Below are positions 42,651 to 59,047 of a DNA stretch of 64,000 nucleotides, piece after piece. Position 1 is the first letter of the stretch; the number at the start of each line of letters is the position of its first letter. A program made the position numbers and the translations under genes. The notes below the pieces were generated by a model. The model was not told where the DNA came from. It was given only the letters and a program-made list of their open reading frames with translations, and searched no databases. This DNA comes from Candidatus Nitrospira nitrosa (GTDB lineage: Bacteria; Nitrospirota; Nitrospiria; Nitrospirales; Nitrospiraceae). The DNA is taken from contig NZ_CZQA01000008.1 in NCBI RefSeq assembly GCF_001458735.1, positions 434,001-498,000 on the forward strand. Reading direction: 5' to 3'.

Positions 42651-43652
42651 GTGATTGACGTTCACAACATTACGAAGCGGTACGGCCATCACACGGCCAT
42701 TGATCGTGTCACCTTTTCTGTCGCGAAGGGAGAAGTGCTGGCCTTTCTTGGCCCCAACGGGGCCGGCAAGACGACGACGATGCGGATTCTGACCGGTTTC
42801 ATGCCCGCGACAGAAGGCACGGCACGCGTAGCAGGGTTCGACTGTACTGATCAACCCTTGGAGGTGAAGCGGCAGATCGGGTATCTCCCGGAAACGCCGC
42901 CGGTCTACCAGGAACTGACGGTCACGGAGTATCTGACCTTCGTCGGACAACTTCGTGGCATGACAGGACCAAACCTTACCTCGGCACTCGACCAATCCAT
43001 CGGACGACTTGAGCTGGGTACTGTCCGGCACCGACTGATCGGGAACCTCTCCCGTGGGTTTCGCCAGCGCGTAGGATTGGCACAGGCATTGTTGCATGAT
43101 CCTCCGGTCCTGATTCTCGACGAGCCGACTGTCGGCCTCGACCCAAAACAGATCATTGAGATCCGCGAACTCATCAAGAGCCTCGCTGGCTCGCATTCCG
43201 TCATTCTCAGCACCCATATCCTGCCCGAGGCGACGGCCGTCTGCCAGCGCGTGGTCATCATCAACAAGGGTCGGATCGTCGCAGAAGATACCCCTGAGCA
43301 ATTGTCGGCACGCCTCCGTCAGTCAGAAAAAGTCTCTCTGACCCTGAAGTCCTGCCCTGTGGACTGTGAGGCGAAACTGCGGGCAATCCCTGGCGTGTTG
43401 CATGTACTCCCCGGACAGGGAGGCGGCACCTTCCTTATCGAATGTGAGTTAGGTCGTGACCTCCGCGACGAACTTGCACGTGTCGCCGTGACAAACCAAT
43501 GGGGGCTGCTCGAACTCCGAACGGTATCCATGACCTTGGAAGACGTCTTCCTCCAGCTGACACGTCACGAAGACCATTCCACCGAAACCACAGAGGCCAC
43601 GGTGAGCCTGGCCGCGACTGATAGCACGGACGGACGGGTAAGAAACGTATGA
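42651..43652 (+). CDS. ABC transporter ATP-binding subunit (GldA-like)
   Basis: The 333-residue ATPase has Walker A GPNGAGKTTTM, the signature NLSRGFRQRVGLAQALLHDP (LSRGF in place of LSGGQ), Walker B PVLILDEPTVGLDP and the switch His in LSTHILPEA. The C-terminal 90 residues form the extra domain typical of ABC-2 export ATPases. The start is GTG without a clear ribosome binding site. Its stop overlaps the permease start by four bases, so the two are coupled. Confidence 0.92.
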   Translation: MIDVHNITKRYGHHTAIDRVTFSVAKGEVLAFLGPNGAGKTTTMRILTGFMPATEGTARVAGFDCTDQPLEVKRQIGYLPETPPVYQELTVTEYLTFVGQLRGMTGPNLTSALDQSIGRLELGTVRHRLIGNLSRGFRQRVGLAQALLHDPPVLILDEPTVGLDPKQIIEIRELIKSLAGSHSVILSTHILPEATAVCQRVVIINKGRIVAEDTPEQLSARLRQSEKVSLTLKSCPVDCEAKLRAIPGVLHVLPGQGGGTFLIECELGRDLRDELARVAVTNQWGLLELRTVSMTLEDVFLQLTRHEDHSTETTEATVSLAATDSTDGRVRNV

Positions 43653-44419
43653 CCCCAGTGCAAGCCATCATTGCCAAGGAACTACGCGTCTACTTTGTCT
43701 CGCCCATTGTCTACGTGGTCGGCGCGGTTTTTCTGCTGATTTTTGGGCTACTGTCCTACCTCTACGTCGGATTCGCGGGCGCGCAAGCCATCCAGTTAAT
43801 GCAAATGCAAGGCGGGCCGGCGCAGATCAACCTGAATGATCTGGTCTTTCGGAATCTCTTTGCGAGCATGCGAATCGTGCTCGTGATCATCTTGCCTATC
43901 TTGACGATGCGATTGTTCGCAGAAGAGCGCAAATTGCGAACGTTCGAATTTTTACTGACCTCGCCGTTGAGGGTCAGCGACATCGTGGTCGGCAAATTTA
44001 TCAGCGTATTTGTCATCTATCTTGGTCTGGTCGGACTTACCACATTGGTCCCGACCGTGCTGATGCTCTTCAGCGACTTTGACTGGAATCCCATCTGGAC
44101 CGGCTATCTCGGCATGGTGCTGCTGGGAGCGCTGTTTCTTTCTGTGGGCCTGTTCGCATCGGCAGTCACGGAAAACCAAATCGTTGCCGCCTTCGTCAGC
44201 TTCGGCCTGTTGCTCACGATTTGGTTGATCGCCGGACTAGGCAGCCTCTTCGGAGATACCACGGCGGGTCATCTCATCTCCTACCTGTCCTACATGGAGC
44301 ACTACGAACGACTCGTTCGGGGGCTGATCGACACGAGCGACCTGATGTACTTCGGAAGCGGTCTCGTGCTCATGCTGTTCTTGACACATCGAGTCGTGGA
44401 ATCGACCAGCTGGAAATGA
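43649..44419 (+). CDS. ABC-2 type permease (GldF-like)
   Basis: The 256-residue product has six hydrophobic segments and the N-terminal KELRVYFVSPIVYVVGAVFL pattern of ABC-2 permeases of the GldF/NosY kind, with the conserved FAEERKLRTFEFLLTSPL. It starts four bases inside the ATPase gene and its stop overlaps the next start (ATGA). The substrate is unknown. Confidence 0.9.
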   Translation: MTPVQAIIAKELRVYFVSPIVYVVGAVFLLIFGLLSYLYVGFAGAQAIQLMQMQGGPAQINLNDLVFRNLFASMRIVLVIILPILTMRLFAEERKLRTFEFLLTSPLRVSDIVVGKFISVFVIYLGLVGLTTLVPTVLMLFSDFDWNPIWTGYLGMVLLGALFLSVGLFASAVTENQIVAAFVSFGLLLTIWLIAGLGSLFGDTTAGHLISYLSYMEHYERLVRGLIDTSDLMYFGSGLVLMLFLTHRVVESTSWK

Positions 44420-45939
44420 AACTCCAATCTTTTCCCCTCGGCATTCTCGGAATCCTGCTCGGCATCGGCGGCATGGTCGCCTACAGCCTTCGACCGGATT
44501 GGCTCTGGGCTGTGACCATCTCAGAAGGCTTCGCACTGGCCTGCCTGGTCTCGTTCTTTGTGCTCCATTTTGAAGCCGTCAAGGCTTTCTCCGGTCGGCG
44601 CTCAACCAAGATGGGATTGAACAGCGTTCTACTGATCGTACTCTTCACGAGCATTCTCGTGATTCTGAATTTTCTGGCAGCACGGCATTCCATCAGATGG
44701 GACCTCTCGGAAAACCAGAACTTCACCCTCGCGCCCCAAACCTATCGGGTGCTTCGGACCCTCCCGCGAGACGTCAAGATCACGGCCTTCACACGCGAAA
44801 AAGACCCTGGCTATCAAGCCTTCAAAGAGCGCTTGGAGAGTTATCGGCAAGCTTCGACCAAGCTGAGCGTGGAATTCATCGATCCGGAAAAGCAACCAAA
44901 GATGGCCCAGACCTACGGCATCTTTCGGACCGACACGGCCATCTTCGAGAGCAACGGGCAGACGATCCGCGTGACGTCCCCCTCAGAAATCGAGCTGACA
45001 GGCGCATTGATCCGAATCTCCAAGGACTCAAAAAAGCGGATCGTCTTCGTTGAGGGCCACAGTGAGCTGAACGTCGAGGACAAAGACCGGAATGGTTTGT
45101 TCATTGCGAAGGAAGCCTTGATCCGCCAAGGGTACGACGTTGGGACGGTCTCGCTCCTGAAGGAAGTTACCGTGCCGGACCATACGTCCGTATTGGTTCT
45201 CGCCGGCCCACGTCGCTCCGTTATAAAAGAGGAGCAGGATCGCATTCACGCATATGTTGAGAAGGGTGGCCATCTGTTAGTCTTGGCCGATCCCGATACC
45301 CAGACGGGGCTCGAGGCACTGCTCGCCCGATGGGGATTAGGCCTGGGCTCCGGCGTCTTGGTGGATCTCCAAGATCGGTTAGCGCAGGGAGACCTTACCG
45401 CACTGCTGGTGAGAACGTTTACAGAACATGAGATCACGCAAGACCTCACCTCAGCCGTGCTGTTACCGCTGTCACGACACATCACCTTCGACGAGCAGAC
45501 CGGCAAAGACTGGGACTTTGTTCCCCTCGCCAGAACTTCGCCCAACAGCTGGGCCGAAACGAATATGCAAGGCCGCGTGGTGAGCCTGAGTGAAAAAGAA
45601 GACGTCAAGGGACCACTTCCGATGGCAGCTGCGCTGTCGCCCAAGAAGGCTCCGGAGGAAGGCAAACCTCATCCATCCATTGTGGTGATCGGCAACTCCA
45701 CCTTCGCCTCCAATGCCTTTTTCAATTTTCCCGGCAACAGCGACTTTTTTCTCCGTACAATCAGCTGGTTGGCTGAGGAACGGGACTTGATCTCTATCGC
45801 ACCACGAGAACCGGCGCTGCATCCCTTTACGCCCAATCCCACACAGGAGCGCGCGTTGATTTACATCCAGGTCGTCTTGTTGCCGCTCATGACCTTCCTG
45901 ACCGGGCTTATCGTGTGGAGAAAACGCCGACGATTATGA
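44416..45939 (+). CDS. GldG-like ABC accessory protein
   Basis: The 507-residue product starts MKLQSFPLGILGILLGIGGM at the ATGA overlap. It has three N-terminal membrane segments, a large periplasmic domain with RWDLSENQNFTLAPQTYRVL and KITAFTREKDPGYQAFKERL (the GldG/ABC_transp_aux pattern), and one C-terminal membrane segment (LLPLMTFLTGLIVWRKRRR). The frame is open 65 codons upstream within the permease gene, but only the portion from 44,416 is coding. Gliding and surface-export roles are known for Gld homologues in Bacteroidota; here the role is not established. Confidence 0.9.
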   Translation: MKLQSFPLGILGILLGIGGMVAYSLRPDWLWAVTISEGFALACLVSFFVLHFEAVKAFSGRRSTKMGLNSVLLIVLFTSILVILNFLAARHSIRWDLSENQNFTLAPQTYRVLRTLPRDVKITAFTREKDPGYQAFKERLESYRQASTKLSVEFIDPEKQPKMAQTYGIFRTDTAIFESNGQTIRVTSPSEIELTGALIRISKDSKKRIVFVEGHSELNVEDKDRNGLFIAKEALIRQGYDVGTVSLLKEVTVPDHTSVLVLAGPRRSVIKEEQDRIHAYVEKGGHLLVLADPDTQTGLEALLARWGLGLGSGVLVDLQDRLAQGDLTALLVRTFTEHEITQDLTSAVLLPLSRHITFDEQTGKDWDFVPLARTSPNSWAETNMQGRVVSLSEKEDVKGPLPMAAALSPKKAPEEGKPHPSIVVIGNSTFASNAFFNFPGNSDFFLRTISWLAEERDLISIAPREPALHPFTPNPTQERALIYIQVVLLPLMTFLTGLIVWRKRRRL

Positions 45940-46083
45940 TGAATCTGCCTTCTACACTCTTCTCTGCAGGATGGTCACAATGGCTGTCCGATGAGGCCAC
46001 AGCCAGTGAAAGGCCGAGGCGCACCCCCTGGGATACGTTGACGATGCCCGAATGCAGCCGGCGGCGATTTTCACCATCCTGAT

Positions 46084-47463
46084 ATGCGTTATTGGCCTAC
46101 ACTCCTGATGTTGTTGATCCTGGCTGGACTGGCTGGCTATCTCTACCTGGTCGAGTTTCCCGCCAAGCAACAGGAAGAAAAACAGGAGACGGCACAGAAG
46201 CAACTCCTCCCGTTCCCGGAAACCGCCATCACGGGCCTCTCCATCACCACCGCTCAGGGGCCGATTGAGCTGAAGCTGACCGAACCGGGGAAGTGGTCCA
46301 TCGTAGCTCCACTTCGGACCGAGGCGGACACACGCGAGGTTCAGGCCCTCGTTCGCGCACTGGTTACGGGAACCGTAACAAGAACTCTGGAGGACCAGAC
46401 TACACAGCTAGCCCCATTCGGTCTTGAACCGCCGGTGACCACCCTCACGGTGACAGCCGGCACGCGACAGGAAACGATTTCCATCGGCGACAGCGGCCCT
46501 CTGTCCAATACCCTCTACGTCTTGAGGAAGTCGGATCATCGCATCCTCTTAACGAGCCTGGCCCCGAAGGATTTTGTCAATAAGTCCTTGATGACCTTTC
46601 GGCGGAAGGAGCTGTTGAAGTTTGTTCAAAATGATATCGAGCGGGTTCGCCTGACCTATCCGACGACCGAAATCGTGATTTACAACATGGCCAAGGATAA
46701 GCCCAAACCTTCGTGGAAAATCCGGTATCCGATCGAAGCCGAAGCGGATCAAAACGAAGTTCGGTCATTGATGTTCCGCCTGGAAGATCTGAAGGCGCTC
46801 GGCATCATCGATCCGGGTCCTGAACGAGACAGCATGGCCAAGACCTTGACGACACCAAAAGTAAAGGTCACCCTGCATACAACCGCCGGGGACCAATCAG
46901 TCCGGCTCTACCAGCCAGACCCACAAAAAGGGGAAGCCATCGCAGAAACTACACCGGACGCGCCACTCTATCGCATTAACCCGGGACTGATCAGGGACCT
47001 GACGAAAGACCTCTTCATTCTTCAAGACAAGCGACTCTTCGGCCTCGACTACACGGATGTGGCCATGCTCTCGGTCAAAACCAGGGATCAGGAATACGTG
47101 TTGATCAACCAGAGCGGGGAGTGGGTCCTGGAGGACCAGTCCATGGAGAAGGTCAGTCAAGAGGTGGCAGATCTCTTCGTCAGTCGGGTGGCCAATCTAC
47201 CGGCGGAAGAACGGGTCATGAAACAATCCGCACCGCTCGCTCCCTATGGGCTCTTGTCTCCGTCCGCAGAGTTTGTCGCCACAGCAAAGGACGGCAAGGC
47301 CACGGGGAAATTGACGTTGGGCAGCCAGTCGGGAAATCTGCTCTATGCGACAGGCCAGCGACTCTCCGGTTTGTTCCAAGTGCGCCCGGACCTCCTGGCC
47401 CAGATTCCCTCTAAAACCGAGCTCCTCGGCAAGGTGCCGAGCGGAACGCCGTCACGGCAGTAA
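46084..47463 (+). CDS. DUF4340 domain protein
   Basis: The 459-residue product has an N-terminal membrane anchor (MRYWPTLLMLLILAGLAGYL) and repeated DUF4340 segments (e.g. WSIVAPLRTEADTREVQALV, WVLEDQSMEKVSQEVADLF). DUF4340 genes are regularly found next to GldG-like ABC modules, as here; the gap is about 144 bases and holds no obvious gene. The function is unknown. It is probably the fourth member of the export complex. Confidence 0.85.
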   Translation: MRYWPTLLMLLILAGLAGYLYLVEFPAKQQEEKQETAQKQLLPFPETAITGLSITTAQGPIELKLTEPGKWSIVAPLRTEADTREVQALVRALVTGTVTRTLEDQTTQLAPFGLEPPVTTLTVTAGTRQETISIGDSGPLSNTLYVLRKSDHRILLTSLAPKDFVNKSLMTFRRKELLKFVQNDIERVRLTYPTTEIVIYNMAKDKPKPSWKIRYPIEAEADQNEVRSLMFRLEDLKALGIIDPGPERDSMAKTLTTPKVKVTLHTTAGDQSVRLYQPDPQKGEAIAETTPDAPLYRINPGLIRDLTKDLFILQDKRLFGLDYTDVAMLSVKTRDQEYVLINQSGEWVLEDQSMEKVSQEVADLFVSRVANLPAEERVMKQSAPLAPYGLLSPSAEFVATAKDGKATGKLTLGSQSGNLLYATGQRLSGLFQVRPDLLAQIPSKTELLGKVPSGTPSRQ

Positions 47464-47491: not shown

Positions 47492-47516
47492 TCAAGTACC
47501 TGAATCAGGTACTTGA
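47492..47516. promoter_or_regulatory. Perfect 25-base palindrome overlapping a -35 element
   Basis: TCAAGTACCTGA, one base, TCAGGTACTTGA: 12-base arms without mismatch. It overlaps the -35 TTGACC at 47,513-47,518 ahead of the first cadherin-like lipoprotein gene. This is the size and placement of a dimeric repressor operator. It could also act as a terminator for the ABC operon ending at 47,463, but it lacks a U-tract. Confidence 0.65.
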
Positions 47517-47542
47517 CCTGACTAGTACAATTCCGCTATACG
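47513..47542 (+). promoter_or_regulatory. Promoter of cadherin-like lipoprotein gene 1
   Basis: TTGACC (47,513-47,518), 18 bases, TATACG (47,537-47,542). The predicted start is near 47,549, giving a leader of about 139 bases. The same TTGACC and TATA hexamers and a similar spacing precede genes 4 and 5. Confidence 0.6.
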
Positions 47543-47687: not shown

Positions 47688-50264
47688 ATGATGCATCTGT
47701 GCACCCGTACCGGACGATCTCTCGCTGGACTGGTCCTGTTTTTAGTGGGTTTGAACGCCTACGGATGCGGGGACACAGGAACCCAAAGCCAACCGGCGGA
47801 GCTTGGAAGCCTATCCACCACCGCTGGCATACTGGAACCAAAATTCAATCCTGCAACAACTGCTTATACCGTGAAGCTGTTCGGCAATGAAACAAGCACA
47901 ACCATCACTGTCAGCCCTCGAGTCGCCGGTGACAGCATACGAATCAACAACCAGGCAAGAACTAGTCAGGCCGTCACTCTCACCTCGATAGGAACAAATG
48001 AAGTCCTAAATATTGTTGTCACGGATACAGGCGTAGGGAACACGTCAAAGTCCTATACCGTTCGGGTAAGCAGAGAGGAGGAGGATACCACGTTACAGGC
48101 GCTCTCATCTTTGCCGGGAACCGTGGCTCCCTCCCCATTCGATAAGACCGAACTGGAACCGTCGATTAATGGCGTCGGGAGCAGCGTCACAAGCATTAGG
48201 CTCACCGCCACGAAGTCTGACTCCAATACCGTGATGGTGATTGATATACCGACTAATCCAGTCACCGTCCCTGCGGGAACTGCAGTAGGAGAAGCGACCG
48301 TTCAGCTCGGCGGAACAGGATCCTCCACAAAGGTTCCGATCACCATCACGGGACCGAAAGGGGGCAAGAGCACCTACCAAGTGACAATCAATCGGGGTGC
48401 ATCGGACAATGCTTTCTTGGGAAGCTTGTCCATTTCGCCGGTGAATCTAAAAGACTTCAAGCCTAGCAACACGCTATATGAGGTTAGCGTCCCGAGTGGC
48501 ACCGACAAAGTCACGGTCACAGGAAAACCTCAAGACGCGACCGCGAGCATGAAGATATTGGTAAATGGCGTAGAAGACCCCCAACCACCTATTCAATTGC
48601 TTGGTCCAGGCCAAACCACCCCCATCACAGTCCATGTAACCGCGCAGGATGGAAAATCCCAACAGGACTACGTTATTAGGGTCAAGCGGGATGCCCTAGC
48701 CGGGAACAACAATCTACAGAGCTTGGCCATCTCACCAGGCACCCTCGATCCCTCCTTTACTGCGAATACGACGAGCTATACGGTGGCTGTACCAAACACC
48801 CTGACAAGCGTGACCGTCACACCACGGCTCCAAGATGCCAGTGCGACCATAACCGTGAATGGTCAAGCCACGAACTCTGGACAGGCCCGAACCGTTGCGT
48901 TGAATGGAGCGGGATCAAATACCCTGGTCAATATTGTCGTGACCGCGCAGAATGGCACTCAGAAAACCTATACCGCAAACGTTGCTCGGGCTGCCCTGGG
49001 CGGAAATAATAATTTACAAAGCTTGGCCGTCTCGCCGGGCGCCCTCGATCCCGCCTTTGCCGCGAATACCACGAGCTATACAGTGGATGTGGCCAGCAGC
49101 GTGGCCAGCATCACGGTCACGCCCACACGACAGGATCCTGCTGCCACGATCACCGTGAATGGGCAACCCACAAACTCAGGTCAGGGTCCAACCATAACGT
49201 TAAATGGGGCAGGATCAAATACCTTGGTCAATATCCTGGTGACCGCGCAGAACGGCAGTCAGAAAAATTACGCCGTGAACGTCAGCCGAGCCGCCCTAGG
49301 CAGCAACAATAATCTGTCGGCCATGAGCGTGTCACCTGGCACTCTGAGTCCCACATTCAGGGCTGATCGAGTCGCTTACACGGTGAACGTCGGCAGCACT
49401 ATCAACAGCCTCACCGTGACCGCTACGGTACAGGATGCCGGGGCAAGCTTGACCATGAATGGTCAAGGAGCAAGCTCAGGCCAGCCACGCTCGATTCCTT
49501 TAGATCAGCCCGGCACTACTACAGAAATTAATGTTGTTGTGAACGCTCCGAATGGCAATCCTAAAACCTACCAACTCGACGTGATTCGAGAGGCACTCGG
49601 AGGCAACAACAATCTGCAAAACTTGTCTGTATCACCTGATAGCTTGGCTCCCACATTTAGCGCGTCCACTGTGGACTATACGGTTTCGGTTCCGAGCGAT
49701 GTCTCAAGCGTAACGGTCACTCCAACACTTCAGGATACAAACGCCACCATGACGGTTAATGGACAAGGGTCGAGTTCTGGGCAGGCGATCACCATCCCGC
49801 TTGGAGCTGAAGGATCAAGCACAAGTGTGGCTATTGTTGTGACTGCTCCCAATGGAAGTCAAAAATCCTATGGTGTCACCATTAACCGCGCAGCGCCCGC
49901 TGCAAAACCGGCAACGCCAACGGTTGCGCCGGACCTGATACCGGAAGACGACTCCTGTGAACCGAATCTTCCTCTTAATCCGAATGAGTGCTTTCCTCCT
50001 ACCTCTCGTGAGGACAATATCACCGCCGTCAAAAGACCAAAATTCGGGATACCTCCGCCTGCAACGGGAACTCCAAGCCTTTATGTTGATACGAACAAGG
50101 ATACTTCGGCATCGTTTGATTCCGGGACCAACACGCTCCGGCCATCAGCAAATCTCAGTGACGGAGATCACACAATTACCTACACACTGACGAATGCTGG
50201 AGGTGAGTCTGACCCAAGTCCAGCATTGACGGTGACCATCAACACTACCGCCCCTGTCCAGTAG
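47688..50264 (+). CDS. Cadherin-like repeat lipoprotein 1 (seven repeats)
   Basis: The 858-residue product has a lipoprotein-type signal (LVLFLVGLNAYGC, Cys27) followed by seven tandem cadherin-like beta-sandwich repeats (Pfam-type PF12733) of about 95 residues. A typical repeat runs NNNLQSLAVSPGALDPAFAA to NGSQKNYAVNVSRAALG. Repeats 4-7 are most alike. A C-terminal Ig-like segment of about 120 residues (from PDLIPEDDSCEPN) carries DNITAVKRPKFG and DGDHTITYTLTNAGGESD and is not found in the other four genes. It is probably attached to a membrane and exported; binding to carbohydrate or protein is an inference. The start chosen is the first of two adjacent ATGs, with only a weak ribosome binding site. 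Confidence 0.85.
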   Translation: MMHLCTRTGRSLAGLVLFLVGLNAYGCGDTGTQSQPAELGSLSTTAGILEPKFNPATTAYTVKLFGNETSTTITVSPRVAGDSIRINNQARTSQAVTLTSIGTNEVLNIVVTDTGVGNTSKSYTVRVSREEEDTTLQALSSLPGTVAPSPFDKTELEPSINGVGSSVTSIRLTATKSDSNTVMVIDIPTNPVTVPAGTAVGEATVQLGGTGSSTKVPITITGPKGGKSTYQVTINRGASDNAFLGSLSISPVNLKDFKPSNTLYEVSVPSGTDKVTVTGKPQDATASMKILVNGVEDPQPPIQLLGPGQTTPITVHVTAQDGKSQQDYVIRVKRDALAGNNNLQSLAISPGTLDPSFTANTTSYTVAVPNTLTSVTVTPRLQDASATITVNGQATNSGQARTVALNGAGSNTLVNIVVTAQNGTQKTYTANVARAALGGNNNLQSLAVSPGALDPAFAANTTSYTVDVASSVASITVTPTRQDPAATITVNGQPTNSGQGPTITLNGAGSNTLVNILVTAQNGSQKNYAVNVSRAALGSNNNLSAMSVSPGTLSPTFRADRVAYTVNVGSTINSLTVTATVQDAGASLTMNGQGASSGQPRSIPLDQPGTTTEINVVVNAPNGNPKTYQLDVIREALGGNNNLQNLSVSPDSLAPTFSASTVDYTVSVPSDVSSVTVTPTLQDTNATMTVNGQGSSSGQAITIPLGAEGSSTSVAIVVTAPNGSQKSYGVTINRAAPAAKPATPTVAPDLIPEDDSCEPNLPLNPNECFPPTSREDNITAVKRPKFGIPPPATGTPSLYVDTNKDTSASFDSGTNTLRPSANLSDGDHTITYTLTNAGGESDPSPALTVTINTTAPVQ

Positions 50265-50278
50265 TCCAGTCCGATCAC

Positions 50279-50310
50279 CCCTGTGGCACGGAAGTACGTC
50301 GGCCACAGGG
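50279..50310. terminator. Terminator-like hairpin after gene 1
   Basis: CCCTGTGGC and GCCACAGGG form 9-base perfect arms around a 14-base loop, 14 bases after the gene 1 stop. There is no clear U-tract, so termination would be weak or Rho-assisted. The rest of 50,265-50,676 holds no gene or convincing promoter; a weak TTGACC-like match was not accepted. Confidence 0.45.
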
Positions 50311-50676
50311 CAGTCCAGTCGATGTACTGGTCTGGTTCACGCTGAATCAGAGAAAGTCATCCGACACACCTGACTGCTGGATCATTTCCCTGGAGTGACC
50401 AGAAGCCTCAATCGTTAACTCACCATTCCACATTCACCTTCCACCGGGGATGGCTCAGAATCAACTGGTGCCTCACCAGCCTCCTTTTATTCATGTAGTC
50501 GACTGAAGCAGAACCTCAGCAACCAGTACTGTCCCCACCTTGGCTCTGACCTCCCTTACCTCTGTAGGTCTAGACCGTTTCCCCATCCTCTCCTAGCATC
50601 AGGACTCTGTTATTTGGGGTCGGCAAGGCCCAAGAAGTTACAAATTCTTGTACCAAAAGAAATAACCGGGACCACC

Positions 50677-52302
50677 ATGAAACACCTTCTGACCTTCAGC
50701 AAGACCTGTTGCACCGTGTTTCTTGTCGCGGCAATCGGCTTAGCGACCTATGGATGCTCGGACAGCGTTTCGATCTCAGAACAAACCGTAGAAGTTCCCC
50801 TCTCTAGCCTCACAGTCACTCCTGGAACAATCCAGCCCGCGTTTTCAAGCAATACCACCACCTATACAGTTGACGCCCCAACCGGCACTGCAACGGTCAC
50901 CGTGGTCGCCACCCCGAAAAGCAGCACAACACTCGTAACAATTGATGGCACGATAGCCTCACAACGCTCCATATCCCTCGGCTCTCCAGGATCGATTAAA
51001 ATAATCCCCATCGTTCTAGAGTCACAGAATGGGCTCACGAGCACCTATACAGTCACGGTCACAAGACTCTTATCAGGCGATAACAATCTCTCGGCATTGA
51101 GCGTCAAAGCCAATAACGCAACTCCGCCCTTGGTTCCTGGCTTTGATGCAAATAGCCTGGACTACAAGGTGGATGTCCAGACAAACGTCGCGTCCGTGAC
51201 GATCACTGCCACCAAGTCAGATCCGAATGCCGCGATGCTGGTCGGGTCTATCACTGTTCCGGCAGGAACAAATCCTGGAGTAGCGTCCATTACACTAGGC
51301 AGCCCCGGGACAACCACGCCTATCCCAATCGAAGTGACCGCACCAAATGGCAGCAAGAAGACCTATACCCTATCCATAAAACGACTCGCAGGAGATAACA
51401 ACCTGTCGGCATTGAACGTCTCAGTCGGTACCTTGAATCCTGTCTTCGTCGCAGGCACTACACTCTACACAGTAGACGTGGCCACCCATGTCACCAGCGT
51501 GGATGTCTCGGCAACGAAATCCGACCCGAACGCCGTGATGTCTGGATCTTTATCTGCAGGAGTCGGAGTCAACCCCGGCCAGGCAACCATCTTCCTAAAC
51601 GGACCAGGGGTACCAACATCTGTGTCAATCACAGTGACCGCACCTAATGGTGATTCAAAAGCCTATAGCCTCACTGTGAATCGAGCGTCATCGAACGACA
51701 ACAATTTGTCTGGAGTAACGGTAGCATCTAGCGCTTCTCTTCTTCCCCTATCTCCCTCCTTTACTCCGAGCACTCAGGACTACGTGGTAGATGTGGCAAG
51801 CGACGTCGCTGAAGTTTCGGTGACTGCTACACTTGAAGATCCGAACGCGAGCATGACAATCGCGGGACAAGGAACCAGCTCAGGTCAGCCTCGTAACATC
51901 CCGTTGTTAGGTGCACCACCATCAAGCACAACAATTGACATCATCGTAATCGCACAAGATACCAGCCAAAAGCCTTACCGTATTACTGCAAACAGAGCTG
52001 CGCCATCGAGCGATGCCAATCTATCTGGATTGAGTGTGGTCCCAGGCACTTTAGATCAACTTTTTGCTCCTAATACCTTGGCCTACACAATCATAAACGT
52101 ACTGACAGGTGAGACCGTCGTTCTTGTGACTGCTACTAAGTCTGATCCAAATGCCACAATGTCCTCAATGGGATCGGTTATCGCCTTCCCCGGGACCCCA
52201 GACGCTGTAGTACAAGTTCCACTGGGGTCAACGGTGGATATTACGGTGATCGCGCAAGATGCAGTAACGAGCAAGTCTTACGCTGTCACCTTCAACCCAT
52301 AG
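50677..52302 (+). CDS. Cadherin-like repeat lipoprotein 2 (five repeats)
   Basis: The 541-residue product starts MKHLLTFSKTCCTVFLVAAI and has a putative lipobox ATYGC with Cys27. Five cadherin-like repeats follow, typified by GDNNLSALNVSVGTLNPVF and ATKSDPNAVMSGSL. The segment after the Cys (SDSVSISEQTVEVPLSSLTV) closely matches those of genes 4 and 5. Unlike repeats 4-7 of gene 1, most repeats here carry the ATKSDPNA pattern and a long variable loop. A start 21 codons upstream is unlikely. Exported, membrane-anchored; ligand unknown. Confidence 0.85.
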   Translation: MKHLLTFSKTCCTVFLVAAIGLATYGCSDSVSISEQTVEVPLSSLTVTPGTIQPAFSSNTTTYTVDAPTGTATVTVVATPKSSTTLVTIDGTIASQRSISLGSPGSIKIIPIVLESQNGLTSTYTVTVTRLLSGDNNLSALSVKANNATPPLVPGFDANSLDYKVDVQTNVASVTITATKSDPNAAMLVGSITVPAGTNPGVASITLGSPGTTTPIPIEVTAPNGSKKTYTLSIKRLAGDNNLSALNVSVGTLNPVFVAGTTLYTVDVATHVTSVDVSATKSDPNAVMSGSLSAGVGVNPGQATIFLNGPGVPTSVSITVTAPNGDSKAYSLTVNRASSNDNNLSGVTVASSASLLPLSPSFTPSTQDYVVDVASDVAEVSVTATLEDPNASMTIAGQGTSSGQPRNIPLLGAPPSSTTIDIIVIAQDTSQKPYRITANRAAPSSDANLSGLSVVPGTLDQLFAPNTLAYTIINVLTGETVVLVTATKSDPNATMSSMGSVIAFPGTPDAVVQVPLGSTVDITVIAQDAVTSKSYAVTFNP

Positions 52303-52306
52303 CTAT

Positions 52307-52316
52307 CCCCCCCCCC
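52307..52316. repeat. Run of ten C just after the gene 2 stop
   Basis: Ten consecutive C begin four bases after the gene 2 stop codon. It is outside any recognised coding region. Runs this long are prone to slippage in replication and in sequencing, so the exact length is uncertain. The rest of 52,303-52,646 holds a weak TTGAAG/TACACT promoter-like pair (52,470-52,497) and no gene. Confidence 0.7.
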
Positions 52317-52646
52317 TAGGTCGGCATGGTCCCTCTCCTGGAGCATTCCTTTCGCGACTGTCCCCCTCGTCACCGCTGACCGACCTACACCAGACAAAAG
52401 CACTCTCTTTAATACGATGTATTCTCTGATAAGGTTTGAGCACTCCCATCAATGCTCACCACATTCAATTTGAAGTATTCACCCTGCCAGCTACACTTGC
52501 CTCTTCTCGCACACCCTGCTGATCCATACACAAGTAGGGATAGACCGATCGGGAATCCCTTTCGTAAGATCTGCATCTCCCGAGTTGGTTCACCGGGTGG
52601 CTGGACCCAGCAGAGTTTCCAGCAAGGCGCATGTCGTGGGTCCATC

Positions 52647-53657
52647 ATGAAACACCGCTTCGCTTTCTATACACGATACCTTGCTCTCACTCTTCTCGCC
52701 GGGACTATCAGTTTTGAAATCTCTGGCTGCAATGACACAGGATCAATTGATCCAGGCCCTCAACTGGTCAGCCTTTCCGTCTCCGGCGCGTCGCTCCAAC
52801 CGCCATTCGCCGGCGACACGACCAGCTATACGGTTGATCTGCCCAGCAACCAGCAAGACATCACCATTTCAGCAACGAAATCTGCAGCGAATGACGTATT
52901 GTCTGGTGCCATCATTGCTCCGGCAGGACAAGTCACCGGTCAGGCTACGATTCAAGCGCCCGGACCTGGATCAACGAAGGATGTCTCCTTGACTGTCACT
53001 TCTTCCGATGGAAGAGCGAAAATCTACACCGTGACCCTGCGGGCGATCACCCTTTCCGGAGACAACAGCCTTAAGACCTTGACGATATCGCCAGGCACCT
53101 TGGCTCCTGCCTTTTCAGCAGGCACTCAGGACTATACGGTGAATGTGGCCAGCACCGTCACCGAAGTGACCGTCGTGACAACTAAATCTGATCCCAATGC
53201 CGTGATCTCAGGTGATGTGCCTAACGAAGGGCGCGCGACACTCAAGCTTGATGGCCCAGGGACCACCAAGATTGTCTCGTTGATCGTCACAGCCCCGAAC
53301 GGAACCTCGAGGACCTATACCATCACCATCAAACGAGCGAGACCCTCGAGCGACGATGCGCTCGCTGGCTTGACAGTCACTCCTGGTTCCTTAAGCCCTG
53401 ACTTTGCATCGGATATCTTGAGTTACCGGGTGACCGTACCTAACAACGTGGAGAGTGTAACCATCTCTGCAACGAAGTCTGATCCCAATGCCGTGCTGTC
53501 CACACCTGGTTCCATAGTCGCGGCGGCAGGAACACCCGTCGGACAAATCTCCCTCCCCCTTCAGGAAAGACGCACTGAGGTGGAGCTGATCGTCACTGCA
53601 CAGAACGGTGTGAATACACAGGCTTACGCCATCACTGTGATTCGGTCTCGCCGATAG
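52647..53657 (+). CDS. Cadherin-like repeat lipoprotein 3 (three repeats)
   Basis: The 336-residue product begins MKHRFAFYTRYLALTLLAGT with a putative lipobox ISGC (Cys28). Three repeats follow: QLVSLSVSGASLQPPFAGD, DNSLKTLTISPGTLAPAF and DDALAGLTVTPGSLSPDF. The stretch after the Cys (NDTGSIDPGPQ) is closer to gene 1 than to genes 2, 4 and 5. The frame is open 65 codons upstream, but that part has no protein-like character. It is one of the two smallest of the five, and its three repeats are the most divergent. Confidence 0.83.
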   Translation: MKHRFAFYTRYLALTLLAGTISFEISGCNDTGSIDPGPQLVSLSVSGASLQPPFAGDTTSYTVDLPSNQQDITISATKSAANDVLSGAIIAPAGQVTGQATIQAPGPGSTKDVSLTVTSSDGRAKIYTVTLRAITLSGDNSLKTLTISPGTLAPAFSAGTQDYTVNVASTVTEVTVVTTKSDPNAVISGDVPNEGRATLKLDGPGTTKIVSLIVTAPNGTSRTYTITIKRARPSSDDALAGLTVTPGSLSPDFASDILSYRVTVPNNVESVTISATKSDPNAVLSTPGSIVAAAGTPVGQISLPLQERRTEVELIVTAQNGVNTQAYAITVIRSRR

Positions 53658-53786
53658 GCAGTGGGCTGAGCCTCACCCTGACGTGGACATCATTCTGCCA
53701 CCGTTTGCCCACTACCAACGATTCTCCGCAATCACTTCACTGACATTTTCACACAGCGAGCCCATCATCCTTTCTCAACTCGTCCG

Positions 53787-53815
53787 TTGACCCGACCGAT
53801 CAGATCCGCTATATC
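53787..53815 (+). promoter_or_regulatory. Promoter of cadherin-like lipoprotein gene 4
   Basis: TTGACC (53,787-53,792), 17 bases, TATATC (53,810-53,815). The sequence from -35 to -10 is nearly the same as at 55,594. An inverted repeat TGCTCG-ATTTG-CGAGCA lies at 53,829-53,845, just after the predicted start. The leader is about 135 bases. The rest of 53,658-53,956 holds no gene. Confidence 0.7.
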
Positions 53816-53956
53816 AATTATCAGTTACTGCTCGATTTGCGAGCATCGTGAAGACCGACCTGAACCCGCTGAGACATTTCGTGGCTGACGGTTTGGATTC
53901 GGCAGACCAGATGGATCAGTTACGCCGTACAACAAAAGTGCTTTTGCGGTACCACT

Positions 53957-55546
53957 ATGAAACCCCGGTTGATCATCACAAGAGCAGATTGGGTTGCTCT
54001 TTGCCTCGTTGTTCTCTGTGTGACTCCCTACGGCTGTAAAGATTCTGCATCAGTTTCAGATAAACCCGATGTCCCACTAGCCAGCCTCAGCGTCACACCA
54101 GCCACCCTTCTGCCGGCTTTTTCCAGCGAGGCCACGAGCTACACCGCCCAGGCTCCGACGACAGCTACCAGTGTCACGGTCACCGCTACCCCCCAGGACA
54201 GCACGGTAACGGTATCGATCGACGGGACTATCGGCACGCAGCGTTCCATTGCCCTCGACCAACCGGGATCGACCAAAACGATCCCCATCGTGTTAACAAC
54301 ACAGACCGGTACGGACAGCACCTATTCGGTTCGTGTGACACGACTACTCTCGGGTGACAACAATCTGAAGACCTTGACTGTCACACCAGGTTCATTGAGC
54401 CCTCTCTTTGATCCAACCAAGCCCGATTACACCCTGGACGTGGCCACCAACATCTCCACTGTCGCCATAGCCGCAACCAAGGCCGATCCTGGGGCGGTGC
54501 TATCGGGGACCGTGTCCAATGACGGACGCGCCACCATTCAGCTTGATGGGCCGGGAACAAGTAAGGCGGTCTCGATCATCGTGACGGCCCCAAATGGCGA
54601 GAGCAAGACCTATCGGATCACCATCAACCGCGCGGCTTCGAGCAACAACAATCTGTCAGCCTTGCGCGTGCAAGTCGGCACCGCTGATCAAACCTTATCT
54701 CCTGGCTTTACTTCTGGAGAGACCAACTACAGGGTGGATGTGGGGACCACGGTTACCAGTATCACCATCACAGCAACCAAGGCTGATCCCCTTGCGGTGA
54801 TTTCTGGTGGCATTCCCAATGAAAGCCAAGCCACCATACCGCTTGACGGCCCAGGAACCAGCAAAGTCGTCTTGATTACGGTCACCGCCCAGGATGCGAC
54901 CACCTCGAAAATCTACCGCATCACCGTCAACCGCGCGGCATCGAGCAACAACAACCTATCGGCCTTGAGCATAACGCCGGGTCCTCTAGAGCCCCTGTTT
55001 GCTGCCAACACGCTGGACTATACGGTCACTGTTGCTCACACTATTTCCGCCGTCGTCATTTCTGCAACGAAGGAAGATCCGAATGCGGTCATATCAGGGT
55101 CTGTGCCAAACGAAGGCCAAGCCACCATACCGCTTGACGGCCCAGGGACCAGCAAAGTCGTCTTGATTACGGTCACCGCCCAGGATGCGACCACTTCGAA
55201 AACCTACCGCGTCACTGTCAACCGGCGTGCATCCAACGACAGCTCGCTGTCGGCCTTGACTGTGAGTGCCGGCACATTGGATCCTCCCTTCGCCTCCAAT
55301 ATCTTGAACTATACGGTCCAAGTTGGTCTCCTCGTCGGCGGCGTCACTATCTCAGCAACCAAGACTGACCCCAATGCCACCATGTCCTCACTAGGCTCGG
55401 TGATTGCAGCACCTGGCAATCCAACCGGCCAGGTGACGGTCGCGCCAGGACTGGGGATTGGCGTGCCGGTTGATATTCAGGTGATAGCGCAGGATGGAAT
55501 AAACACAACGACCCACAGGATTACTGTGAATCGAGGACTTTTCTAG
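53957..55546 (+). CDS. Cadherin-like repeat lipoprotein 4 (five repeats)
   Basis: The 529-residue product begins MKPRLIITRADWVALCLVVL with a putative lipobox PYGC (Cys27). Five cadherin-like repeats follow. Repeats 3 and 4 share a block of 109 bases with only about five differences (54,825 and 55,116, 291 bases apart), evidence of recent internal duplication. The post-Cys segment KDSASVSDKPDVPLASLSV matches genes 2 and 5. Last repeat: NDSSLSALTVSAGTLDPPF, nearly the same as the last repeat of gene 5. Confidence 0.86.
   Translation: MKPRLIITRADWVALCLVVLCVTPYGCKDSASVSDKPDVPLASLSVTPATLLPAFSSEATSYTAQAPTTATSVTVTATPQDSTVTVSIDGTIGTQRSIALDQPGSTKTIPIVLTTQTGTDSTYSVRVTRLLSGDNNLKTLTVTPGSLSPLFDPTKPDYTLDVATNISTVAIAATKADPGAVLSGTVSNDGRATIQLDGPGTSKAVSIIVTAPNGESKTYRITINRAASSNNNLSALRVQVGTADQTLSPGFTSGETNYRVDVGTTVTSITITATKADPLAVISGGIPNESQATIPLDGPGTSKVVLITVTAQDATTSKIYRITVNRAASSNNNLSALSITPGPLEPLFAANTLDYTVTVAHTISAVVISATKEDPNAVISGSVPNEGQATIPLDGPGTSKVVLITVTAQDATTSKTYRVTVNRRASNDSSLSALTVSAGTLDPPFASNILNYTVQVGLLVGGVTISATKTDPNATMSSLGSVIAAPGNPTGQVTVAPGLGIGVPVDIQVIAQDGINTTTHRITVNRGLF
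54825..54933 (+). repeat. Near-identical direct repeat within gene 4, unit A
   Basis: About 109 bases are repeated at 55,116-55,224 with about five mismatches, and the offset of 291 bases equals exactly 97 codons, the length of one cadherin-like unit. The frame is kept. This points to unit duplication or gene conversion. Confidence 0.85.
55116..55224 (+). repeat. Near-identical direct repeat within gene 4, unit B
   Basis: This is the partner of 54,825-54,933. Differences cluster at third codon positions near its 3' end. Confidence 0.85.
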
Positions 55547-55593
55547 AAACTGAACCTCTATGGTGAGCATGTGCTATTTCTCGGCCCTATCGA

Positions 55594-55622
55594 TTGACCC
55601 GACCGAGCAGATTCGCTATACG
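55594..55622 (+). promoter_or_regulatory. Promoter of cadherin-like lipoprotein gene 5
   Basis: TTGACC (55,594-55,599), 17 bases, TATACG (55,617-55,622). The spacer is almost the same as at 53,787 (CGACCGAkCAGATyCGC in shorthand). An inverted repeat GTGTCA-TATGC-TGACAC lies at 55,622-55,638, over the end of the -10 and the start site. The leader is about 130 bases. Confidence 0.7.
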
Positions 55623-55758
55623 TGTCATATGCTGACACACTGTTCTCGTGCATAGCAGGCAGACGATGGATCATCAGCGGTTAGCATGACCATCACATAT
55701 GTACGCTTTTTACCGGAGCGGAGCAGGGTGCCTTCTCGATCCCTGAGAGGTTGACTAC

Positions 55759-56811
55759 ATGTCCATGAAGCACACGCTCATTTCTACAAGTTGCCACACC
55801 GCTGTCCTTCTCATCACCCTCTGCTTCAGTGCCTCTGGCTGCAAAGACAGTGCGTCAATCTCAGAACGCTCGGTAGAAGTACCCCTTGCCAGTCTAACCA
55901 TAACCCCACCCGGTGGGCTCCAACCGGCCTTTTCTAGCAATACCACCAGCTATACCGCTAGCGTGCCCACTGCCGTGACCAGTGTGACAGTGACAGCCAG
56001 TCCCCAAAGTAGCACGACCACGATTATGATCAAGGGGGTGATCACCCCTGCAGGGCAAGGCCACCCTGTGCCACTCGGCCAGCCTGGATCAACCACCCCC
56101 ATCGAAGTGGTCGCTTCCTCACAAAACGGGCTTGAAAGCAGGTACACCGTCACGGTCACACGGCGACTTTCAGGCGATAACCGCCTCTCAGATTTGAAAG
56201 TGACAACAAGTACTGTCCTGCAGCCGTTGTTGCCGAGATTTGATACCAATGTTCTGAACTATACGGTGAACGTGGCAAACACCGTTGAACAGGTCACGAT
56301 CACCGCCACCAAGTCCGACCAGAGTGCCACGATGCTGATGAGTTCAGCGGCGAACTCCGTCAGTATTGGGCCAGGGATCAATCCCGGGCAATTACCGGTC
56401 ACGCTTGGTAATCCAGGGACAACCACCTCTGTGTCGATTACTGTCACCGCACCCAGTGGAGCCGCCGAGACCTACTCCATCACCATCAACCGCCTCTTCT
56501 CCAACGACAGTCTTCTGTCTGCGTTACAAGTAAACGCGGGTTCTTTGGACCCACCCTTTGCGCCCGACACAGAGAACTATACCGTGAAGGTAGGCCTCCT
56601 CGTCCCCGATGTCACCATCACGGCGACGAAATCCGATCCGAATGCCACAATGTCGGCGTTGGGATCGGTGATTGCCACGGCAGGAACCCCAACCGGCCAG
56701 GTGATCATCTCGCCGGGGCTGGGCCCAAATCCACCGGTTGGAATAGCCGTCATTGCGCAAGACGGAGTGACCAGCACGACGTACAACGTCACTGTTATTC
56801 GAGGGCTCTAG
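55759..56811 (+). CDS. Cadherin-like repeat lipoprotein 5 (three repeats)
   Basis: The 350-residue product begins MSMKHTLISTSCHTAVLLIT with a putative lipobox SASGC (Cys28). GAGAGG lies eight bases before the ATG, the best ribosome binding site of the five. Three repeats follow: PLASLTITPPGGLQPAFSS, DNRLSDLKVTTSTVLQPLL and NDSLLSALQVNAGSLDPPF. The last repeat ends GVTSTTYNVTVIRGL without a C-terminal extra domain. Confidence 0.86.
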   Translation: MSMKHTLISTSCHTAVLLITLCFSASGCKDSASISERSVEVPLASLTITPPGGLQPAFSSNTTSYTASVPTAVTSVTVTASPQSSTTTIMIKGVITPAGQGHPVPLGQPGSTTPIEVVASSQNGLESRYTVTVTRRLSGDNRLSDLKVTTSTVLQPLLPRFDTNVLNYTVNVANTVEQVTITATKSDQSATMLMSSAANSVSIGPGINPGQLPVTLGNPGTTTSVSITVTAPSGAAETYSITINRLFSNDSLLSALQVNAGSLDPPFAPDTENYTVKVGLLVPDVTITATKSDPNATMSALGSVIATAGTPTGQVIISPGLGPNPPVGIAVIAQDGVTSTTYNVTVIRGL

Positions 56812-56969: not shown

Positions 56970-57641
56970 CTATCGTTTTGGGTCCAGCTCGATTAAACCT
57001 TTGCGGATGGCGAGAATGGCCGCCTGGGTGCGGTCGTACACTTGTAACTTGTGAAAAATATTCCTGACGTGATTCTTGACCGTCTTTTCACTGAGGTCCA
57101 AACTATTGGCGATTTCTTTATTGGTCTTTCCATCAGCGACCAACCGCAACACGGTAATTTCCCGCTCCGTCAAATCATGCTCGGCCCATGCCGACTTTTT
57201 CCCTTTTTTCTGCGCCATGAGCGAAAACTCGGCCAGGATTTTGCTGGCGACCGATGGGTGGATCAACGATTCTCCACGGTAGATCGCGCGGATAGCCGCC
57301 ACGATCTGCGACGATTCAGAGTCCTTCAGGAGATATCCTGTCGCGCCTGCACGGACCAGGTCAAAGATGTATTGCTGTTCCTCATACATGGTCAACGCGA
57401 CCACGCCGATGTGTGGGAATTCACGCTTGATCTGTCTGGTCGCCTCGACGCCGCCCATTCGTGGCATACTGACGTCCATCAGAATCACGTCCGGAAGCAA
57501 GGCGCGGGCTTTCTCCACCGCTTCCATCCCATCCTGCGCCTCGCCGAGGACATGAATATCTTCTTTCGTCTTGAGAATAGCGGCTAACCCTTCTCGGACG
57601 ACCCGATGGTCGTCGGCGATGAGGACCTTAATCTTTTCCAT
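56970..57641 (-). CDS. NarL/LuxR-family response regulator
   Basis: The 223-residue product begins MEKIKVLIADDHRVVREGLA. The receiver domain has Asp56 as the phosphate acceptor in DVILMDVSMPRMGG, and the C-terminal LuxR-type HTH reads LTEREITVLRLVADGKTNKE and LSEKTVKNHVRNIFHKL. AGGAGG lies nine bases before the ATG. Its start overlaps the kinase end by 14 bases, so the pair is cotranslated. Target genes are unknown; the cadherin-like array is adjacent on the opposite strand. Confidence 0.93.
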   Translation of the reverse strand: MEKIKVLIADDHRVVREGLAAILKTKEDIHVLGEAQDGMEAVEKARALLPDVILMDVSMPRMGGVEATRQIKREFPHIGVVALTMYEEQQYIFDLVRAGATGYLLKDSESSQIVAAIRAIYRGESLIHPSVASKILAEFSLMAQKKGKKSAWAEHDLTEREITVLRLVADGKTNKEIANSLDLSEKTVKNHVRNIFHKLQVYDRTQAAILAIRKGLIELDPKR

Positions 57642-58737
57642 GCTGTTGCTCCTCCTTCTGACCCAATGGCACTTCAACAACGATCCTGGTGCCTTTGCCT
57701 GGTTTGGATTCGACTCGCCCCTCCCCTCCGACTAATCGGGACCGCTCCAAGATACCTTTGATCCCGAAATGGTCCCATTTCTCAGGGTCGCGTAGCACGG
57801 TCTCCATATCGAACCCAATTCCATTATCAGTGATCGTGACTCGCAGCAGATCGATCTCGATATCCAGCTTAATCGTCACGCGATCCGCCTTGGCATGTTT
57901 TTGAACATTCCCCAAGGCCTCTTGAATGATGCGAAAGAGAAACATCTTCGTTCGAGGAAACAGAATCTGTTCGTCCCCGGAGAAGGCAAACTTGGTGGTG
58001 ATGTGTGTCTGGGTCTGATAGGACTTGAAGTAGTTGGTCAGCGCCGAAATCAATTCCATCTTGTCATAATGCAGAGGACGCAAATTAAAGATGACCTGCC
58101 GGGCTTCTTGAATCGCCAGTTTCAGCTGAGCCTTACTCTCCTTGAGCGTCGCCAAACTCGCTCGGGGATTCTTTCGGAGGAGCTGCTGACACAGATCCAG
58201 TTTGAAATTGACCCCCGCCAAGATCTGCACGAACCCATCATGAATCTCACAGGCGATTCTGGTCCGTTCATCCGTCACCGCAGCGCCGGTTTCCTTCACA
58301 TACAATCGGTAGAGAGATTGATACTTGTTCAACGTTTTTTCGATCTCCGCCGTCGCGCGAATTCTGGCTCCGATCAACTCCCACATGAACTTGGCACTGG
58401 CTCCTCCAATGACGGTCACGCCCATTCGATGAAAATCTTGGAGGAATTGCCAAACGTCCGGGTCTCCAGACACATCAATGATTAGGTCGACACGCTCCAT
58501 CGTGAGCAGCTGTTGATAGTCGTGAGTGATCGGAATCTTCAACTGCGTGGCCAACTCAAGTCCCGGCGCACCAGGATTGACCTCCGCAACCCCGACGATC
58601 TGCACCAACGGGTCGTTCGCAAAGATCTCGATCAACGCAGTGCCTCCGCGACCAGCACCGATAATGGCGACGCTGGTTGCCGCAGACACCGATGCGTTTC
58701 GTTTCCCACGCTGAGATGGAGGCTTGATCGTCGGCAT
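57628..58737 (-). CDS. Histidine kinase with N-terminal Rossmann domain
   Basis: The 369-residue soluble kinase has an unusual sensor: residues 20-130 form a Rossmann fold (VAIIGAGRGGTALIEIFAND, VDLIIDVSGDPDVWQFL) like NAD(P)- or CoA-binding oxidoreductases, with no PAS, GAF or membrane part. A short helix links it to a HisKA_3 dimerisation domain (ERTRIACEIHDGFVQILAGV, His166) and an HATPase_c domain (N-box EALGNVQKHA, DNGIGFD at 304-310, GIKGILERSRLVGGEG). It probably reads a nucleotide or redox cue. The ATG start is used; a TTG eight codons earlier is possible. The gap 58,738-59,047 holds no gene. Confidence 0.9.
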   Translation of the reverse strand: MPTIKPPSQRGKRNASVSAATSVAIIGAGRGGTALIEIFANDPLVQIVGVAEVNPGAPGLELATQLKIPITHDYQQLLTMERVDLIIDVSGDPDVWQFLQDFHRMGVTVIGGASAKFMWELIGARIRATAEIEKTLNKYQSLYRLYVKETGAAVTDERTRIACEIHDGFVQILAGVNFKLDLCQQLLRKNPRASLATLKESKAQLKLAIQEARQVIFNLRPLHYDKMELISALTNYFKSYQTQTHITTKFAFSGDEQILFPRTKMFLFRIIQEALGNVQKHAKADRVTIKLDIEIDLLRVTITDNGIGFDMETVLRDPEKWDHFGIKGILERSRLVGGEGRVESKPGKGTRIVVEVPLGQKEEQQHGKD

Positions 58738-59047
58738 CGAGGTTCTAGGAGATTTCAACAAAGCAGTGTGGACGCTGCTCAGAGACGCGTGACTGCATGA
58801 TCTTGTACGCGATCCCTTGCTCTACAGGATGTCCGGCAGAGCCGTTCCGCCGGGCCCCAATCGGCAAAGAAGTGAGGTGAACTCCTCGCCGCACCCTACC
58901 CGACTGATGGAAGCCTGACCCATGCAGGAGAGCTAGGGTTTCACTATCCGGCTCGTACTCGAATCACCCCTCTTGTCACCGTGTGGGACATGAAACGACC
59001 GAGACGGAACCACTCTGGGAAGAGAAAGGATCGACAACGGTCGGAGG

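Follow-up and report, generated by a model that had tools for sequence, protein, structure and literature searches.

The 64,000-nucleotide (nt) stretch of Candidatus Nitrospira nitrosa analysed here, hereafter the window (contig NZ_CZQA01000008.1, positions 434,001 to 498,000 of the forward strand), carries an array of five adjacent plus-strand genes that encode putative lipoproteins with repeats of the PF12733 family (Table 1). An earlier reading of the letters, the first-pass annotation, had described 3-7 repeats per gene and about 23 in all; Pfam finds exactly 23 (7+5+3+5+3). For genes 1 to 5 the PF12733 scores are 335.7, 198.9, 119.7, 211.2 and 155.9 bits against a curated cut-off of 24.2 (E-values 3e-102, 1.5e-59, 7.5e-35, 2.1e-63 and 3.7e-46), which places all five proteins in this family. 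A whole-genome search showed that these are all the PF12733 repeats of the 4.42 Mb genome, and none were found in 14 control genomes. The proteins are 335-858 aa long and in four of the five the last repeat forms the protein end; the tail of gene 1 matches the immunoglobulin (Ig)-like domain Big_13 (E 8.6e-9). This tail, the repeat classes and the conserved promoter-like element before each gene described below go beyond what the first-pass annotation had noticed.

Table 1. Features of the array and its surroundings, in window positions; coordinates of the array genes were counted from their ATGs
Feature	Position	Strand	Description
Left flank	42651..47463	+	ATP-binding cassette (ABC) ATPase, permease and auxiliary protein (GldA/F/G-like, below cut-off), DUF4340 protein; fixed, outside the system
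Class A element, gene 1	47513..47540	+	TTGACC-N18-TATACG, about 175 nt before the ATG
Gene 1	47688..50264	+	N-terminus YGC|GDTG; 7 PF12733 repeats; C-terminal Big_13 Ig-like tail
Class B element, gene 2	50557..50599	+	TAC-N4-GTAGG-N2-TAGACC-N17-TAGCAT
Gene 2	50677..52302	+	Lipoprotein-type N-terminus YGC|SDSVSISE; 5 PF12733 repeats
Class B element, gene 3	52527..52570	+	TAC-N4-GTAGG-N2-TAGACC-N18-TAAGAT
Gene 3	52647..53657	+	Lipoprotein-type N-terminus SGC|NDTGSIDPGP; 3 PF12733 repeats
Class A element, gene 4	53787..53813	+	TTGACC-N17-TATATC
Gene 4	53957..55546	+	Lipoprotein-type N-terminus YGC|KDSASVSD; 5 PF12733 repeats
Class A element, gene 5	55594..55620	+	TTGACC-N17-TATACG
Gene 5	55765..56811	+	N-terminus SGC|KDSASISE; 3 PF12733 repeats; three beta-sandwiches (AlphaFold2)
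Right flank	56970..58761	-	LuxR-type response regulator; HisKA_3 kinase whose N-terminal stretch is Rossmann-like; fixed

Results

Each of the five window proteins has a hydrophobic N-terminal signal that ends at a Cys, and the lipoprotein-type signal that had been proposed for every gene recurs in other array proteins of the genus. Of 91 such proteins, 87 have G immediately before the Cys (-1), 85 have D at +3 and none has D at +2, giving a conserved C-x-D-[ST] start directly after the signal. This G-C junction provides the signal peptide, lipobox and Cys expected of a bacterial lipoprotein, with atypical residues at -3 and -2, and the Cys is probably lipidated. The sequences behind it fall into two groups (genes 2, 4 and 5, and genes 1 and 3), a division that the first-pass annotation had already drawn and that recurs in relatives.

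Three repeat classes can be distinguished, which we call N-cap, internal and C-cap. Best matches between species stay within the class for 52 of 53 N-cap, 34 of 42 C-cap and 130 of 146 internal repeats, the other 16 internal repeats matching the end classes. By eye, linkers rich in D and N separate the repeats, and in most arrays read one long member carries a C-terminal tail of ~115-145 aa. For gene 5, AlphaFold2 predicts three beta-sandwiches that are well resolved (pLDDT 87). The gene 1 model is of lower confidence; it shows strands following one another across all seven repeats and leaves the tail unresolved. The top Foldseek matches of gene 5 include an RTX adhesin (6xi1), E-cadherin (7stz/3q2v) and the S-layer protein SbsB (4aq1), among other Ig-like proteins. 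A second look gave the AgaBb C-terminal domain as best structural match (8yk1_A 746-844, Z 13.5, root-mean-square deviation 2.0 over 98 residues); VIA-align rows with Z ~8 or less were counted as generic Ig-like matches. No enzyme fold was found among the structure matches of the array repeats, and searching solved structures by sequence returned no match for them. The domain search and structure prediction that had been advised as a check therefore lead to PF12733 beta-sandwiches, although a predicted fold shared with other proteins does not by itself demonstrate a function.

Upstream sequences of 88 array genes yielded two recurrent promoter-like elements. Class A has the consensus TTGACC-N17/18-TATA, about 120-178 nt before the ATG, and class B consists of a TAC-N4-GTAGG dyad followed directly by TAGACC-N17/18-TANNAT, ~95-110 nt before the ATG. 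In the window, class A precedes genes 1, 4 and 5 and class B genes 2 and 3; in relatives, some array genes carry the two in tandem and others show no recognisable element of either class. The exact class A pattern has only three matches in the source genome and class B only two, a number unchanged with a looser pattern, all of them in the array. Across 59 genomes there are 33 exact matches for class B and 28 for class A, against one each for reversed-pattern controls. Except for one class A stray (G009:C124), these matches come from array loci or from contigs with parts of an array; on G032:C208, a contig whose genes were not read, both kinds of element occur at array spacing. Position, spacing and conservation suggest a promoter role for these elements, and each array gene probably forms a transcription unit by itself. 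We also considered a conserved RNA hairpin in the leaders, where some genes have AACCCT...AGGGTT, and rejected it for want of a plausible Rfam match or a consensus fold: the RNAalifold consensus of 49 leaders is unstructured, unlike that of a riboswitch-like leader.

The array ends tail-to-tail with a two-component system on the opposite strand, just as the first-pass annotation had it. Genome after genome in the genus, the order is ABC ATPase, permease, auxiliary protein and DUF4340 protein, then the array, then response regulator, kinase, nrdR and glyA, so that the synteny proposed as a check is indeed seen: close relatives carry the array at the same flanked site. With this, and with no enzyme fold among the structure matches, the outcomes that the first-pass annotation had named as refuting did not materialise. 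A homologue of the kinase flank is present in 59 of 59 Nitrospirales genomes and one of the DUF4340 flank in 54 of 59, array-less ones included, which means that both flanks predate the array. The ABC genes adjoin DUF4340 in array-less members of the genus too, the left and right array flanks are separated in G022, G025 and G030, and the three proteins score 313, 128.8 and 71.9 bits with the NCBIfam models of GldA, GldF and GldG, below the cut-offs of 402.6, 288.5 and 389.85. We therefore rejected the ABC module as a partner of the array, and the earlier suggestion that it might help in export or assembly finds no support. The adjacent response regulator is a possible dedicated regulator of the array; its kinase is found in every one of the 59 genomes, but the elements are confined to where the array occurs. 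The kinase itself (57628-58761) has an N-terminal Rossmann-like NAD-binding stretch (weak matches to DapB_N / GFO_IDH_MocA) fused to HisKA_3-HATPase, and may sense redox state or be otherwise linked to NAD. In the assembly of G019 (locus L063, 11681-13079) the DUF4340 flank gene reads as two overlapping frames.

All genomes with the array form one clade in the right-flank tree (support 0.83). The nearest relative is G032, with a kinase 98% identical to that of the window. The flanks are fixed, but the numbers of genes and repeats between them differ, intact arrays of the genus ranging from about three to five or six genes. In G021, which has no array, DUF4340 directly neighbours the response regulator, with ~170 nt separating the open reading frames (ORFs), which identifies an empty site; in G017 a different gene of ~1066 codons lies between them. 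Instead of the array, G022, G026 and G230, the last from another genus, have a single PF12733 lipoprotein gene near dnaE (identified by eye from its protein start); in G230 this gene is preceded by a class B element at ~129 nt. The dnaE-side position may be the ancestral site of the gene family, and the promoter-like element seems to have spread together with it. Beside this gene in G230 (locus L107, 8524-12353) are two Ig-like He_PIG lipoproteins with a GCNDVSN start. A member of a further genus (G282, locus L100, 5345-16388) has a five-gene PF12733 array at a different locus, with a GCIPSSD start and without class A or B elements, and G304 has extra single PF12733 genes elsewhere in addition to the usual array. 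An insertion sequence-type insertion or a rearrangement splits the array of G012 over two contigs (L059 / L090); transposase-like ORFs mark the break, and either side has the same start gene. Another transposase-like ORF (MTCLRRLKRWHQSGV...) is found at the array end, just before the response regulator, in L072 and L110 (KAN-bin2 / G220). The source genome is that of a comammox Nitrospira and has two amoA copies. A strict association of the array with comammox was rejected, as some amoA-positive genomes are without the array and some amoA-negative ones have it.

Between species, the flanks are 82-99% identical to the window's proteins, whereas the array proteins are roughly 40-87% identical. 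Likewise, the ratio of nonsynonymous to synonymous substitution (dN/dS) is 0.22-0.35 for array genes and 0.02-0.09 for the flanks, so that the array is constrained, and hence functional, yet evolves much more loosely than its surroundings. In G024, three neighbouring repeats are mutually 94-97% identical, and an adjacent gene pair shares 99.4% identity over its last 320 nt compared to 75% in the preceding 100 nt, a pattern of repeat expansion and of gene conversion between neighbours. These traces, together with the single clade and the varying counts between fixed flanks, lend good support to the expansion by duplication that had been proposed. Inside the window the most similar long repeats are at most 75% identical at the DNA level (over 300 nt). 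A C10 tract lies directly 3' of the gene 2 stop (52307-52316) and is absent from the matching stretches of three relatives; phase variation through this homopolymer was rejected, as it lies after the stop and no coding switch was seen. The frameshifts in array genes of G007, G029 and G034 are probably assembly artefacts, since they fall at near-identical repeats, in an N stretch or at an apparent deletion. Elsewhere in the source genome (G000:C11:93496-93783, locus L115), a 3810 aa open frame with a He_PIG domain is possibly another giant surface protein.

Discussion

What could such an array be for? We lean, with modest confidence, towards a locus that encodes a co-regulated set of outer-membrane lipoproteins, whose rod-like ectodomains function in cell-cell or cell-matrix cohesion as an adhesive or matrix coat. 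In one clade of Nitrospira, one or more ancestral genes with a class B-like element would have moved, probably from near dnaE, to the site that DUF4340 and the response regulator flank, and there gene duplication, repeat duplication and gene conversion would have multiplied them. By sequence, each product has a signal peptide ending in G-C, the C-x-D-[ST] start and a chain of 3-7 beta-sandwiches, running from an N-cap through variable internal domains to a C-cap. With the Cys lipidated, the rods would extend outward from the outer membrane, and their varied internal domains would act in microcolonies, flocs and biofilms as modules for cohesion or adhesion. That the promoter-like elements are dedicated to the array implies a specific regulator, which might switch on the set as a whole or as subsets A (genes 1, 4 and 5) and B (genes 2 and 3). 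The surface adhesion that had been put forward in the first-pass annotation is plausible: lipoprotein-type N-termini, beta-sandwich rods, fold matches to adhesins, cadherins and S-layer proteins, and fast but constrained evolution suggest that the array proteins may be exposed on the outer-membrane surface and may have a role in adhesion.

We must however take into account several observations that weigh against such a cohesive coat. The -3 and -2 residues are often A, T or S followed by Y, unlike a textbook lipobox, and a generic sigma-70 scan did not list the class A and B elements. Several Nitrospira are without the array, which is thus not essential for the genus. Furthermore, UW-LDO-01, a strain from a planktonic habitat that Camejo et al. 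compared with Ca. Nitrospira nitrosa (PMC5596200), appears to retain it (G032: 19 repeats), indicating that the array is not simply a biofilm marker.

Lipoproteins are by default periplasmic unless they are exported to the surface. The array proteins could thus face the periplasm from the inner leaflet of the outer membrane and, instead of being adhesins, space or link parts of the envelope as structural proteins, which we consider unlikely, if a serious contender. Besides the default location, the strongly conserved start after the Cys would fit such a role, as would the lack of an identified export system near the array, the ABC module being unlinked. Conversely, the variation of the internal repeats (about 40-87% against 82-99% for the flanks) and the turnover in gene number are more typical of proteins that face outward. 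Those same properties, namely rapid evolution accompanied by changes in copy number, by gene conversion and by expansion of repeats, would also be expected if the array were mainly a variable shield or S-layer-like coat under predation by phages or protists, selected for diversification and not for stickiness. S-layer proteins are indeed among the fold matches, but the dN/dS values are well under 1, the limited identity of the window's copies argues against recent switching there, and no domain for a crystalline layer was seen; we regard this explanation as improbable.

A further alternative is that the rods serve as scaffolds that capture glycans or other substrates, in the manner of surface glycan-binding lipoproteins. 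This would explain why SGBP-B (6e57) and glycosidase C-terminal domains (8yk1) occur among the fold matches. Ig-like domains are generic, however, the neighbouring genes that were read include no carbohydrate-active enzyme or SusC-like partner, and Nitrospira are chemolithoautotrophs, all of which makes glycan capture very improbable. The cohesive coat can also be taken a step further, in that the A and B elements, the latter with its TAC-N4-GTA dyad, could define a private regulon through which Nitrospira display one surface coat or another depending on their state, and the C-x-D-[ST] start could be a signal for surface export that has yet to be described in Nitrospira. This extension is speculative and we would not expect it to hold.

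Nitrospira are key nitrifiers of wastewater treatment and grow in dense microcolonies. To our knowledge, the proteins that hold these microcolonies together have not been established, and the locus provides a concrete set of candidates for this cohesion. The sharp phylogenetic boundary between the array clade and sister genomes in which the site is empty or nearly so, combined with the promoter signature, makes cohesion, surface variation and regulation testable. In the open literature that we searched there is hardly anything on the PF12733 family, and we found no paper on PF12733 arrays in Nitrospira. The domain itself is known, but we are not aware of an earlier description of several such genes arrayed at one conserved site with elements dedicated to them.

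How does the array compare with known systems? Like other PF12733 proteins, those described here are probably exported and carry the domain in tandem, 23 of 23 repeats scoring above the curated cut-off; what sets them apart is their distribution over several separate lipoproteins in one gene array, with promoter-like elements of their own. The He_PIG lipoproteins that adjoin the dnaE-side gene of G230 share a lipoprotein start and, by eye, a class B-like upstream sequence, but have another Ig-like domain (PF05345) and occupy another locus. The three proteins upstream of the array resemble the GldA/GldF/GldG models, yet stay below the cut-offs, and their genes also occur without the array. With classical cadherins the resemblance is in fold only. 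RTX/Bap-type adhesins, such as that of Aeromonas (6xi1) and BapP of Pseudoalteromonas tunicata (PMC12153261), are likewise chains of cadherin-like beta-sandwiches with a proposed role in cell cohesion. Instead of an RTX family, of which the Pfam scan (E 0.01) found none, the array proteins have an N-terminal lipoprotein signal; the RTX secretion signal itself was not tested, and no type I secretion genes are among the neighbouring genes read. The array proteins also differ from these adhesins in being short and probably lipid-anchored.

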